A DNA stretch of 22,331 nt from a virus. Within the stretch, counting starts at the first letter, position 1, and each line of letters begins with the position of its first letter. The stretch covers positions 1-22,331 of IMG/VR virus record IMGVR_UViG_3300036829_000070; one strand, 5' to 3'. Positions 5,174 to 16,300 of the stretch are shown piece after piece. The translations under genes were made by a program, and so were the position numbers. A model generated the notes under the pieces. That model was not told the origin of the DNA. It was given only the letters and a program-made list of their open reading frames with translations, and did no database searches.

Positions 5174-5466
5174 TTTGGTTCCTTGTCTGTCATGCTCTGG
5201 ACTGCCTCGTCGTGGGCAGCGATCACTTCGGAGTGAGTTGGTGCGCCGCCGGGTGAGTGCCGACGGCAAACGCGGTGTCCCGCTGCGGTCGCATGCCGCC
5301 CGAGCCGCGGACAGCGGTGTACCTCGCAGTTGTGCCGGCGCAGGAACGCTGCTGTCGCCGCGCTGATCGTCGCCGATGTGAGCAGCGCCGGGATGCAGCC
5401 AGACCAGGCGTCATACGCGTACGACTGCTGCGTGTCGACCCCGAGGACGTGCAGCAGCCAGTGCAT
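5170..5466 (-). CDS. Small membrane protein with Cys/His cluster, holin region
   Basis: 98 aa. The ATG overlaps the stop of the upstream gene by one base (TGATG). After a short N-terminus (MHWLLHVLGVD) there is one membrane span (about 22-42). A C-terminal soluble part follows with His45, Cys47, His50, Cys52, His58, His64, Cys67 and His70 within the HNCEVH...GRH...CRRHSPGGAP pattern. I recognise this layout, one membrane span followed by a C/H-rich 'hHnC.vH.C.R.GRH' segment, as a recurrent actinophage membrane protein found beside endolysins, with no proven function. The cluster could bind a metal. It is translationally coupled to the endolysin through the TTGA overlap and could act as a holin or as a regulator of lysis. 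Confidence 0.75.
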   Translation of the reverse strand: MHWLLHVLGVDTQQSYAYDAWSGCIPALLTSATISAATAAFLRRHNCEVHRCPRLGRHATAAGHRVCRRHSPGGAPTHSEVIAAHDEAVQSMTDKEPN

Positions 5467-5849
5467 CAGCCGCCGCCCCCCCACGCCAGCGCGCAGGCGG
5501 CGGTGACGCCCGCGATGATCAGCAGGAGGCCGAACGTCTCGCACAGCGCCAGGGGCAGGGACCGCTTGGCGCGCAGCATCGCCACGGTGATGCCGATGCA
5601 CAGGCAGATGATCGCGCACTCCGCGATAGCGGCAGGTCCCGTGCTGAACGCGAACGGCAGCGCGGGCAGCAGCGCGCCGGCGAGGGTGGCGATGCCCATC
5701 ACCGAGGACCCTGCGAGGCCGTCGCGGTTGTCGTCGGACAGCCACCATCCGGCGGCCATCGACAAGGCGGCCGAGAGCGCGCCGGACAATGCCGTCTCAA
5801 AGATCAATGACGGGCGGCTGAGCAACAGGAAAATTGTCACGCCGAGCAA
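5466..5849 (-). CDS. Multi-span membrane protein, putative holin-like
   Basis: 127 aa with three to four hydrophobic segments (roughly 1-10, 18-37, 50-92 and 98-122). Short polar links (WWLSDDNRDG, RAKRS) separate the later ones, and it ends in a run of glycines. It is the first gene of the lysis operon and overlaps the next start by one base. The start is uncertain: TTG at 5849 has GGGA upstream at about 8 nt, and a GTG three codons inside is the alternative; no ATG is available. No family motif is recognised. Position next to a lysozyme suggests a lysis role, but a general membrane or exclusion function is equally compatible. Confidence 0.65.
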   Translation of the reverse strand: MLGVTIFLLLSRPSLIFETALSGALSAALSMAAGWWLSDDNRDGLAGSSVMGIATLAGALLPALPFAFSTGPAAIAECAIICLCIGITVAMLRAKRSLPLALCETFGLLLIIAGVTAACALAWGGGG

Positions 5850-5915
5850 TGAAGCGGTCCCGTCGAAACTTCCGAGAATCGCAGGACGCGCGAGTTGTGA
5901 ACGCAGTGAAATCCC

Positions 5916-5956: not shown

Positions 5957-5989
5957 GAAACCCCCCCGGACGTGACCCAGGAGGGTTTC
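5957..5989. other. Leader hairpin upstream of the RAMP-like gene
   Basis: GAAACCC (5957-5963) pairs with GGGTTTC (5983-5989), extendable by two more pairs across one A/C mismatch, around a loop of about 13 nt. If transcription starts at the nearby -10-like box, this hairpin would sit at the very 5' end of the leader. There it could protect the RNA, attenuate, or insulate against read-through. It lacks a proper U-run on either strand. Confidence 0.4.
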
Positions 5990-6022
5990 GGCGAGGCGTC
6001 TCACTAGGAAGGAATCCGCCTC

Positions 6023-6631
6023 ATGGCCACTGTAAACGCCGTGTCTCCCGCGAGCAACGACGGGTCGTCGATCATCGACCAGAGTCAGCCGTACGCGGTC
6101 GAGTTCACGATCAAGGGAGTCGCACCGCTGCTCTTTCATCGCTGGTCGGTTGAAGCGGTAGCCGAGAAGGCCGCTGCGGCAAAGGGATCGGCAGCGAAGA
6201 AGACCGACGACATCCAGTCCTACGTCTGGCGACTAGACAACGGCGAGATCGGTCTCCCCGGCGAGTACGTCCGGCAGGCGGCGATCCTTGCGGCAAAGTT
6301 CCGCCAGGATCCGCGATCACCCCGAAAGTCGGCGATGGACTTGTACAAGGCGGCGCTCGTGTCGCTTACCGACCTGGCGTCGCTCGGAACCACCGATTGG
6401 GACTATCTCGATCAGCGGCGCGTGATGATTCAGCGCGCAGGCGTCACCCGGTGCCGTCCAGCGTTCCATCCCGGCTGGTCGGCGAGGTTCATGTTCCAGG
6501 TCCAACTGCCTGAATACGCGCCCCCGGCCGACGTCCTGGACGTTCTCGCGAACGCTGGCCGTTTGATCGGCGTCGGCGACTTCCGGCCTTCTTTCGGCCG
6601 GTTTCAGGTGACCTCGTTCGAGGTAGCCTGA
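6023..6631 (+). CDS. RAMP/Cas7-like phage protein preceding a pentanucleotide repeat array
   Basis: 202 aa, ATG at 6023 with AAGGAAGGA about 9 nt ahead. A beta-strand opening (EFTIKGVAPLLFHRW, 27-41) leads to a lysine/alanine-rich helix. A middle block follows (GEIGLPGEYVRQAAILAAK, 74-92), then RPAFHPGWSARFMFQV (145-160) and the C-terminal signature AGRLIGVGDFRPSFGRFQV (178-196). The last motif closely resembles the glycine-rich loop plus final strand of RAMP (Cas5/6/7) RNA-binding proteins. I also recall this ending in a widespread phage protein family of unknown function. No catalytic residues can be named. The gene stands alone on the plus strand between two minus-strand operons, with its own leader and terminator, and is followed 14 bp after its stop by the GGCNN array. 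RNA or DNA binding is inferred from the loop and the context, not shown. Confidence 0.8.
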   Translation: MATVNAVSPASNDGSSIIDQSQPYAVEFTIKGVAPLLFHRWSVEAVAEKAAAAKGSAAKKTDDIQSYVWRLDNGEIGLPGEYVRQAAILAAKFRQDPRSPRKSAMDLYKAALVSLTDLASLGTTDWDYLDQRRVMIQRAGVTRCRPAFHPGWSARFMFQVQLPEYAPPADVLDVLANAGRLIGVGDFRPSFGRFQVTSFEVA

Positions 6632-6645
6632 CCTAGTACCTCTGC

Positions 6646-6750
6646 GGCCTGGCGAGGCATGGCGCGGTCCGGCGAGGCAGGGCGCGGCGTGGTGGGGCAA
6701 GCCATGGCAGGGTTTGGCGGGGCTGGGCGTGGCATGGTAGGGCAAGGCAA
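6646..6750 (+). repeat. Tandem pentanucleotide array, 21 units of consensus GGCNN
   Basis: From 6646 to 6750 every fifth base restarts a GG or GC step. Sixteen of 21 units are GGC plus two variable bases. Units 5, 10, 14 and 19 (6666, 6691, 6711, 6736) are GGT, and unit 12 (6701) is GCC. The two variable bases take many values, so this is not a simple slippage repeat. The register never breaks over 105 bp. Downstream, 6751 begins GGAGA and the terminator stem. The array lies 14 bp after the stop of the RAMP-like gene and before that gene's terminator, so it is the 3' untranslated part of the same mRNA. Reading frames through it give only Gly/Arg/Ala-rich or Pro/Arg-rich peptides, so coding is unlikely. 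Confidence 0.93.
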
Positions 6751-6753
6751 GGA

Positions 6754-6793
6754 GACTGCGGTGGCCGCCTTCGGGTAGGCGCCGCAGTCGTTT
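6754..6793 (+). terminator. Hairpin terminator closing the RAMP-like gene/array transcript
   Basis: GACTGCGG (6754-6761) pairs with CCGCAGTC (6782-6789). A few further pairs form inside (for example GCC 6767-6769 with GGC 6778-6780), and GTTT follows. It begins 3 nt after the last pentamer unit. It also faces the 3' end of the minus-strand operon (HNH gene stop at 6827), so it may serve convergent transcripts. Confidence 0.75.
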
Positions 6794-6826
6794 CCGCCGC
6801 AACTCGCGAACACGCGAGGGCGTGCC

Positions 6827-7303
6827 TCACGAGCTGGCCCCCGGGTGCATGTGCTTCCACTCGCCTGCCGAGTAGAAGTGCGCAGGGGGCTCAACGCCAG
6901 CCTTGCGGTACCGCATCGGCTCCCAGAGAGGACCGGGCAAGACGTGTACGCCGTACGCCGTGCGATGGTGGGCAGAGCACAAAACCTCGAGGTTGCCCGG
7001 AGACTCGGCCCATGCCTGGAAGTCGTCATCATCGGCTAGATGCAGTCCGAGCGCCTCGTTCACCCGGTGGAAGTCTGAGGCGTTGACCTGGGAAAACTCC
7101 AAATGTGAGTGATGGAGTTCGGGAACTCCGGCGCAGTACGGGTCAGCGAGGATGCACTTCCACAGTCCCTGTCGCTTGAGCCGCGCCTTGGCCTGCTCGA
7201 ACAGACGGTAGTGCGGGTCGCCTTCCCGGGGCTCATGCTCGGGAATCGAGGCGACGATGTGCAGCGTCATGGCCTGCTCGTGCGCCGGGATGACGTCTCC
7301 CAC
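6827..7303 (-). CDS. HNH endonuclease domain protein
   Basis: 158 aa from GTG at 7303, with GGAGG 7 nt upstream and 3 bp after the preceding stop. The nuclease core is WKC...PYCAGVPELHHSHLEF (48-70; His64, His65, His67), then NLEVLCSAHHRTAYGVH (104-120; Asn104, Cys109, His112, His113). This fits a beta-beta-alpha-metal HNH fold with Cys50, Cys57, Cys109 and a histidine as possible structural zinc ligands. I recognise the 'ELHHSH.EF ... NLE.LC..HHR...G.H' pattern from actinophage HNH proteins. HNH proteins act in phage packaging, as homing nucleases or in DNA turnover. This one is the last gene of the late operon and far from the terminase, so the role is open. The acidic stretch DDDD (91-94) is unusual. 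Confidence 0.82.
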   Translation of the reverse strand: MGDVIPAHEQAMTLHIVASIPEHEPREGDPHYRLFEQAKARLKRQGLWKCILADPYCAGVPELHHSHLEFSQVNASDFHRVNEALGLHLADDDDFQAWAESPGNLEVLCSAHHRTAYGVHVLPGPLWEPMRYRKAGVEPPAHFYSAGEWKHMHPGASS

Positions 7304-13366: not shown

Positions 13367-16300
13367 CTACCGGCGGGCGAGGCGGACCTGCCGCGCCGCC
13401 GCCGTCAGCCCGTTCTCGATGTCCTTGACCGTGGTGAACCCGGGAACGTGGTTGATGTTCACGTTCTCGACGTGCAGGGCCCCGCCGTCGCCGCCCCTGG
13501 CCGTCAGCGCCGCGCTCTGCTCCGGCGAGTACACCCGCCCGGACTGGCCGAAGGACGCTAGTTCCGGGCCCCGGTCGCCGACAACAAACAGCTGCCCGGC
13601 GGAGAACGTGCCGCCGTGCCCGTAGTGCGGCAGCTTCGACGCCGGCACGCCCAGCCAGCGGGCCACCTCGCGGCCCATGGTGGCCCCGAGGTTCTTCATC
13701 TGCTTCTCCAGCGCCGACTGCTGGGCCTTGAACCCGTCCACGACGGCTTTCCCGTACACGGCGACCGCGGCGGTGTGCGCCACCCCGCCCGCGGCGCTGG
13801 TGATGGCACCCTCGGCGGTGTTGATCTGCTTGATGATCGACGACCCGCCGGACAGCATCGCCTGTGCGTAGGTGTAGCCGTCGTCCGGGCCCATGGCGAC
13901 CACCTGCTGCAGCAGCGTCTTCGACAGGCCCGCCTTCTTGAGCTGGCCGATCGCGCCGCTGAACTTGTTCAGCTGGGCGAGTTTCGCCTGCAGCTGTGAC
14001 GAGAGGCCGCCGCCCTTCTGGAACGGGTCCACGGTCAGCCCCGACAGCGCCCCGTAGCCGGACAGATTCGATTGCACCGACGACTGGTAGGAGACGGCGG
14101 CGTTGTGCTGGCTAGTCAGCGTCGTGAGCTTGTTGGCCAAGTTGGTCAGCTGCCGGGACTGGGTGCTGATCTCTCGTTCCCGCGAAGCGGCGGAATGACC
14201 GCTGTAATACGTCTGGATGGCCTTCACGGCGGCGGACTGTTCGCTCGCGATTTTGCTGAGCGTGGTGACGACGCCGGACATGTAGGTGTCGGCGACGGTG
14301 AGGCCGCGGCTCTGCTCTGCTGTGAGCCGGCCGCCCACGACCCCTCCGGACGCGAACCCTGGCACGCCGTGCGCCTTCAGGGCGTCCGCGAACAGGGGCA
14401 CCAGGTGCTTCGGGATGACCGCCTCGCCGGGCGTGAGCATCGCGAGCACGCTGTCGCTGTTCCCGGTGCCGGGCACCTTGCCGCCGGATGCATACCATCC
14501 TGCGGACGTTTCGTGCGCCCACGCGGCCGCCGGCGACCCGTACCGGCCCAGGATGTAGCCGAGACCCCACCGGATCTGGGTCGCCGGGTTCGTCATGTAG
14601 TCCGCCCCGGCGCTGGCCATCTTCGACGCTGGCAGCGATTGCGGGATGCCGTACGCGCCCGACGACGGGTTCGTGGCGGTGGTGTTCCACCCGGACTCGC
14701 GGGTCCACAGGGATTGCAGTGCGGTCCACTGCGAGCCGGTCCAGCCCATCGCCGCGGCCATCGCCTTGCCGATCGCCTCGTTGGAGGCGTTGCCGCCGCC
14801 ACCGCCGCCGCTGAACAGGCCGCCGATGAAATTCCCCAGTTTCGACCCGAGCCCGGTGAGCGCGCTCAGCGCCTTCGACGGCAGGCTCGCAACCGACGCG
14901 AGGCCCTTCTCCACGATGGAGCCGAGCGCGTCCGGCAGCGACCCGAAGATCTGCTTGACCATGCCGGTCAGGTCACCGCCCATCATGCCCTGGAACAGGC
15001 CGGACATCAGGTGGCCGCCGATCCCGGCCATGACAGTACTGGGGCTCTTGATGCCGAAGAAATGCTTGACCCAGTTGATCACGGGGTCGACCACGTTCGA
15101 CTTCACCCAGCCGCCGATGTCCTTCATGGCGTTGACCATGCCGTTTTTCAGGCCGCGGATGATGTCGCCGCCGTGACCGACGAGCCAGCCGCCCGCTTTC
15201 GCGAAGCTCCCGATGATCCAGCCGCCGATCTTCGTGATCCACGACCACGCGGCGGACCACTGGGCTTTCTGTCCGTTCCAGAGCCCGGAGATAATGTCAC
15301 GGCCGTGACCCACCAGCCAGCTAGCGGCCTTGGCGAACGCCGAGATGATCCAGCCGCCGATCTTCGTCACCCAGGACCAGGCCGTCGACCACCGATCTTT
15401 CTCGCCGCTCCACAGGCCGTCGATGATGTCCCGCCCGTGGGCGAGCAGCCACGATCCGGCCTTGGCGAAGACGCCGCCGATCCAGCCGCCGATCTTCGTC
15501 ACCCAGGACCAGGCATCGGACCAGCGGGCCTTCTCGCCTTCCCACAGGCCGCCGATGATGTCGCCGCCCACCTTGAGCAGCCACTTCCCGGCCGCCTTGA
15601 ACGGGGCGAGGACGAAATTCCCGAACTTGCCGAGCCACCGGACGACGGCCCCCCAGGCGTCCTCGGCGCCGTACCACAGGCCGAGGAGGATGGACTCGCC
15701 CTTACCGCGCAGCCAGGACAGCGCGTCCTTGAAGTAGCCGCCGATCAGGTCACCGACCGGCCCGAACACCTTCCCGAGGATTTTCTTCAGCAACGACCAC
15801 AGCATGTCGCCGACCTTCGCGACCGGGCCGAGGAAGAACTTCGTCAGCGGGCCGATGATCGGCACCTTGTCGAGCACGTCGATCAGGATCCCGGCGGCCT
15901 TCCCGATCGGGATCAGCGCCAGGATGAACTGGAGCATGTCGAGCGGGTGATGGATGGCCTCGTCCAGGATCGCCGGGAGGAGGCCGTTGAAGATCCCGAC
16001 GATGAGGCCGACCATCACCTTCGCGGCCGCGCCGCCCACCTGCGTCCAGTTGATTTTCCCGAGCAGGTCGACGAACGCCGCACCGATCTTCTGCGCCCCG
16101 GACACGGCACTGGACAGTATGTCGGAGAACACCTGGCCCCAGTCGACCTTTTTCACCGCGCTGATGATGCTGTCCGCGATGCCGCCGCCTGCCTTCGCCG
16201 CGTGGCCGGGCAGGGCGTTGAAGATCTGGGCGGACTGTCCGCCGATCTCCGGCCCGAGCCGCGCCTGGACCGTGGCGGCGGGCAGGTTGTAGAGGCTCGA

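Follow-up and report, generated by a model that had tools for sequence, protein, structure and literature searches.

The DNA analysed here, referred to as the window, is a whole IMG/VR viral record of 22,331 bases. A self-contained plus-strand unit flanked by minus-strand genes is present at 6023–6750 and consists, as a preliminary description of this DNA had stated, of a gene for a 202-aa protein, a 14-bp gap and a 105-bp array. The features of this unit and its immediate surroundings are as follows.

5958–5996, plus strand: dyad GAAACCC...GGGTTTC in the leader upstream of vipr, seen in the sequence.
6023–6631, plus strand: vipr gene, encoding a 202-aa protein with a predicted RAMP/Cas7 fold (phrog_4652, E 1.2e-18; PDB 36pp; Foldseek).
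6646–6750, plus strand: vrRNA repeat tract of 21 GGYNN units (69 bits versus a shuffle maximum of 17.7).
6646–6750, plus strand: NN dinucleotides of units 1–21, in order CT GA AT GC CC GA AG GC GT GG AA AT AG TT GG TG GT AT AG AA AA.
6751–6795, plus strand: 3' tail, a GC-rich hairpin after the last repeat (−28.4 kcal/mol, z −3.05).

The 202-aa protein was left unnamed by Pfam, NCBIfam and PADLOC, and phrog_4652 is a PHROG of unknown function that also contains the Vipr protein of SUSP1. A phmmer search of the PDB with the single sequence identified entry 36pp, 'SUSP1 Vipr protein' (E 6.5e-8). A profile of 43 relatives gave the same entry with an E value of 2.9e-12, and this was the only convincing sequence relative in the PDB. 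Relatives found by tblastn were encoded by Phage DSL-LC04 (61%), Felix-O1-like phages including SUSP1, and Pseudomonas LESphi2. The preliminary description had made its interpretation depend on a RAMP fold being predicted. An AlphaFold2 model built from 43 sequences had a pLDDT of 89, and all 50 Foldseek matches listed against the PDB were CRISPR effector subunits or complexes (best E 8.6e-8), including type VII Cas7, Csm3 and Cas7-11. The glycine-rich loop previously placed at residues 178–196 corresponds to a conserved stretch from 179 to 194, in which G179, G183, P189, G192 and R193 were invariant in 43 of 43 sequences. The model supports the assignment of a Cas7/Csm3-like RAMP fold to this protein.

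VIPR is a CRISPR-related, RNA-guided system described in a preprint of April 2026 (bioRxiv 2026.04.26.720920; PMC13142463). It consists of Vipr, a single-RRM RAMP protein with a G-loop, and vrRNAs of alternating GGY and NN, the reported but not defining repeat number being 9–16, and recognizes DNA via the NN letters with one base skipped per repeat (PMC13142463). Seven types have been published; VIPR acts phage against phage, reads DNA by a gapped code and has been proposed as an ancestor-like relative of CRISPR (PMC13142463). In SUSP1 the vrRNAs are transcribed and associate with Vipr, which uses the skip code to bind dsDNA and acts as a transcriptional repressor (PMC13142463). The unit in the window resembles the SUSP1 system (type II) in its homologous RAMP protein, its GGY/NN array on the coding strand and its structured 3' tail. 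Unlike in SUSP1, no vap gene is adjacent to vipr in the window, the array lies 14 bp rather than about 500 bp from the gene, and it has 21 units compared to the 9–16 reported. The two Vipr proteins are distant (44% over 70 aa), and the sequence of the tail hairpin is unlike that of SUSP1.

The array had been described as 21 GGCNN pentamers followed by a hairpin with a U-run. The 21 units are present, but the strict GGC is not, as GGC or GGT starts 20 of them and unit 12 starts with GCC; the repeat unit is better described as GGYNN than strictly as GGCNN. The hairpin is likewise present, whereas the U-run is weak (GTTTCC) and absent from the terminator-scan list. A log-odds scan for period-5 GGY, with 200 first-order Markov shuffles of the 22-kb strand as the control, gave 69.2 bits at 6646–6755 compared to a best shuffle score of 17.7 (n = 200). 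The same scan found no second array in the window. The array starts 14 bp after the end of vipr on the same strand, and we infer that the gene and the repeat tract constitute one transcription unit. No promoter for this unit was recognized, and an Rfam scan of the window gave no match. No vap accessory gene, a typical but not a defining part of VIPR loci, was recognizable next to vipr, which has no same-strand neighbour.

An HNH-like ORF at 6827–7303 on the minus strand (phrog_8048, E 0.0018) was considered as a vap gene and is not favoured, being on the opposite strand, weakly matched and unconserved. This ORF is convergent with the array, and DSL-LC04 likewise has an HNH gene downstream of vipr in the opposite orientation.

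An IMG/VR profile scan matched 447 relatives, 80 of which were kept; addition of relatives from other searches brought the collection to 86 loci. The preliminary description had predicted that arrays would accompany homologues, and GGYNN arrays were found on the vipr strand in 85 of the 86 loci and on the opposite strand in the remaining one. Among 89 control viral loci fetched for other reasons, short weak runs of at most 22 bits were present in 9. The shuffle control and this strand asymmetry rule out chance, low complexity and coding effects as the origin of the array. The arrays of the clade often abut vipr directly and reach 140 units; across them GG(C/T) is conserved and NN approaches randomness, with an entropy of about 3.8 out of 4 bits. 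We found no second gene conserved across the clade. Distant Viprs are also encoded by two (L183 and L184) of 396 genomes sampled from the phylum to which an Actinoplanes genome belongs, and several GGYNN arrays lie close to them. Among the relatives, L076 (3624–4323) and L081 (2210–2789) have uninterrupted GGYNN tracts of 140 and 116 repeats, far above the 9–16 repeats published per vrRNA.

The fold is that of Cas7/Csm3, which would also be expected of a CRISPR-Cas relic or a mini-CRISPR array with a stray Cas7. This origin is extremely unlikely for the unit, as repeat-spacer structure is absent from the window, PADLOC assigned no CRISPR-Cas model to the eight window proteins scanned except for a weak CARF match on a recombinase fragment, and the closest solved sequence relative is SUSP1 Vipr rather than Cas7. 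The earlier statement that the array is not a CRISPR array agrees with these results, no cas operon profile being among those matched. The protein shares the RRM-type RAMP fold and the glycine-rich loop with the Cas7/Csm3 backbone subunits of class 1 systems, which form an RNA filament with periodic base-pair skipping (PMC13142463). It differs from those systems in that the window is without a CRISPR array or cas operon and the code is a 5-nt repeat, not a contiguous spacer. TIGR-Tas (PMC12045711) is similar in that phages encode it and that it targets DNA by RNA guides from a tandem-repeat array, and differs in its protein family and its array.

To decode the array we used the rule of PMC13142463, in which NN is read and one target base is skipped as a wildcard. 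IMG/VR was scanned with three seeds of eight repeats each (units 1–8, 8–15 and 14–21). The middle seed, with 16 bases, matched 10 stretches. In 4 of the 10, units 2–7 and 16–17 matched as well, at 16 of 16 bases, giving 32 of 32 over units 2–17. Only 16 of these 32 bases had been used in finding the target, and the chance expectation for the neighbouring 16/16 matches is roughly 10 x 4^-16. The match fails outside units 2–17, such that the matching block is exactly 16 consecutive repeats of the 21 in the tract, and the GCC unit sits within this perfect block. The seeds from units 1–8 and 14–21 gave only chance matches in IMG/VR. With the same middle seed, a skip of 0 matched 7 stretches and a skip of 2 matched 2 stretches, none of which extends. 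A match of an Actinoplanes genome to 10 guide units did not extend either and was attributed to chance; the target site was found in 0 of 396 genomes sampled from the phylum of that genome.

The four target contigs, all viral, represent one phage, as they are 100% identical over their overlaps, and the target was seen in this phage type only. The target is a 47-bp site in a gene for a VIT1-like membrane protein (Pfam E 5e-8) near a GH25 endolysin gene. This gene is read from the strand opposite to the site, and the skipped base falls at codon position 3. Because each skipped base is a wobble position, synonymous third-base changes offer the target no escape. As in SUSP1, the target is read with a one-base skip, belongs to a probable competing element and has the skipped base at the wobble position; unlike in SUSP1, it is a lysis-region membrane gene rather than a satellite phage. 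No vipr gene was found in the target contigs by a search that had no positive control.

The window has tail genes of actinophage type, its best tape-measure relatives being those of Gordonia and Streptomyces phages, and it also encodes a GH25 endolysin and a large serine integrase. As it carries this integrase, the window phage is presumably a temperate actinophage, judging from gene content. A second protein common to the target phage and the window, encoded near the endolysin, is 49% identical between the two. The target phage is probably a competing mobile element and a rival of the window phage.

The preliminary description missed that the guide resides in the NN letters, which spell out the target. 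If the array were instead a protein-binding decoy or a packaging or assembly scaffold, GGY repeats alone would suffice for binding, and the match to the rival phage would be due to chance. This explanation is very unlikely given the diversity of the NN letters and a 32/32 target that appears only under the one-base-skip code, as the skip-0 and skip-2 controls did not extend. In addition, scrambled arrays scored at most 17.5 compared to 33.5 for the real array, with the target loci having been fetched with skip-1 seeds; the unbiased case, locus L054, scored 23.

The targeted protein has a homologue in the window, encoded beside vipr, and the guide was aligned with this gene as well. The features involved are the following.

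6651–6730, plus strand: guide proper, units 2–17, 16 dinucleotides matching the rival-phage target at 32 of 32 bases with a 1-nt skip.
5466–5849, minus strand: own homologue of the targeted gene, encoding a VIT1-like membrane protein, beside vipr (BLASTP 44%, E 4e-23).
5773–5819, plus strand: own-gene site aligned with the guide, 23 of 32 bases (9 mismatches), the best self match of the guide.

The own neighbour protein matched Pfam VIT1 with an E value of 0.003, which is below the Pfam cut-off. The start codon of its gene is uncertain, as homology continues upstream of 5849. The homologous region at 5850–5912 is without an ATG, GTG or TTG start, and translation may instead begin at the CTG after AGGGGATTTCA.

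That the best self match lies in the neighbouring gene, at 23/32 over a background of 19/32, is what would be seen if the array regulated its own phage, the RNP repressing gene 5466–5849 rather than the rival's gene. However, the rival site matches at 32/32, while the 9 mismatches of the own site are spread along the guide. A second case points the same way. When 265 arrays were compared to all collected DNA, the L054 guide matched a DUF669 gene at 27/32 in the wobble phase. This DUF669 gene adjoins vipr directly upstream in five relatives, whereas the copy that L054 itself has at this position matches the L054 guide at only 19/32. Self-regulation is therefore improbable. The preliminary description had offered regulation of the gene by the array and a decoy role as alternatives, and neither is favoured.

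We consider it very probable that the unit in the window is a VIPR system with this guide and this target. What it adds to the systems described in 2026 is a decoded natural target and the pattern at the neighbouring gene. By homology with SUSP1, several Vipr subunits with the RAMP/Cas7 fold would line up on the repeat RNA, with the protein gripping the GGY of each pentamer and displaying the NN pair for base pairing, a mechanism proposed and tested for that system (PMC13142463). The resulting RNP would read dsDNA as NN-x-NN-x with one skipped base per repeat, and repeats 2–17 would direct it to the 47-bp site in the rival's VIT1-like gene near the lysis genes. Once bound, it may repress the rival's gene, as repression in SUSP1 suggests. 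The window phage itself would escape, its allele next to vipr deviating at 9 of the 32 read bases. Both the earlier observation and the core of its interpretation stand: coating of the pentamer RNA by RAMP subunits, each step being set by a G/C triplet, agrees with the mechanism published for VIPR, as does the alternative of a guide-like scaffold (PMC13142463). The pair of guide and target decoded here is natural and independent, comes from a genome of actinophage type, shows no departure from the one-base-skip rule and belongs to a system far from both VIPR systems studied at the bench.

For 192 arrays, guides were compared to own DNA lying no more than 1 kb away. With a skip of 1, similarity exceeded that of shuffled guides (mean z 0.56 ± 0.12), compared to z values of −0.08 for a skip of 0 and 0.07 for a skip of 2. 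Similarity above the shuffles was absent for more distant own DNA and for other loci. The skipped base was at codon position 3 in 13 of the 19 strongest own-neighbourhood sites (null about 40%). Most of the 192 arrays gave no signal of similarity to a neighbour. At the level of sequence comparison, these data are independent support for the skip-1 code in the clade. They also lend support to guides aimed at homologues of the neighbouring gene, as a tendency and not a rule.

A prospective test of whether guides prefer a rival's allele of the neighbouring gene was carried out on locus L053, in which an AAA_24 gene lies beside the array, with the criterion fixed before looking. Neither of the only two usable homologues matched the guide better than the own copy did (29 and 27 versus 29 of 36), and by this criterion the test, made on a very small sample, failed. 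The L053 guide decodes to the AAA_24-family peptide DKRINGLLKEWSDVIVFA, compared to DRRINGLLREWCDLIIFA in its own gene, the residues having been chosen among those that NN allows.

We give about even chances to the proposal that guides in this clade aim at rivals' alleles of the vipr-adjacent gene, the own allele having diverged enough to be spared. Intronless homing and marker exclusion offer a precedent. The T4 segF gene adjoins gene 56, and SegF attacks the rival's allele of this neighbour while its own allele has diverged. SegF is a protein endonuclease that cuts, whereas VIPR is an RNA-guided binder that presumably represses. Whether the pattern amounts to RNA-guided allele or marker exclusion is, in our estimate, evenly balanced. 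Its role would be in competition among related phages or prophages, with the guide singling out the rival's allele of the VIPR-adjacent gene, an assignment to which we attach roughly equal weight for and against. The pattern may be new to the field. If it is true, the gene adjacent to vipr offers a clue to how guides arise and to spread of the VIPR locus by recombination. Under a rule in which guides are aimed at the rival's version of that gene, natural targets could be predicted and the origin of guides could be tested.

Two further observations concern the window outside the vipr region. Tandem serine recombinases are encoded at the contig end (94–2143), comprising a resolvase/invertase-like fragment at 94–519 and the large serine integrase at 422–2143. 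The tape measure gene contains about three copies of a 132-nt repeat at 15140–15568, with roughly 73–80% identity.
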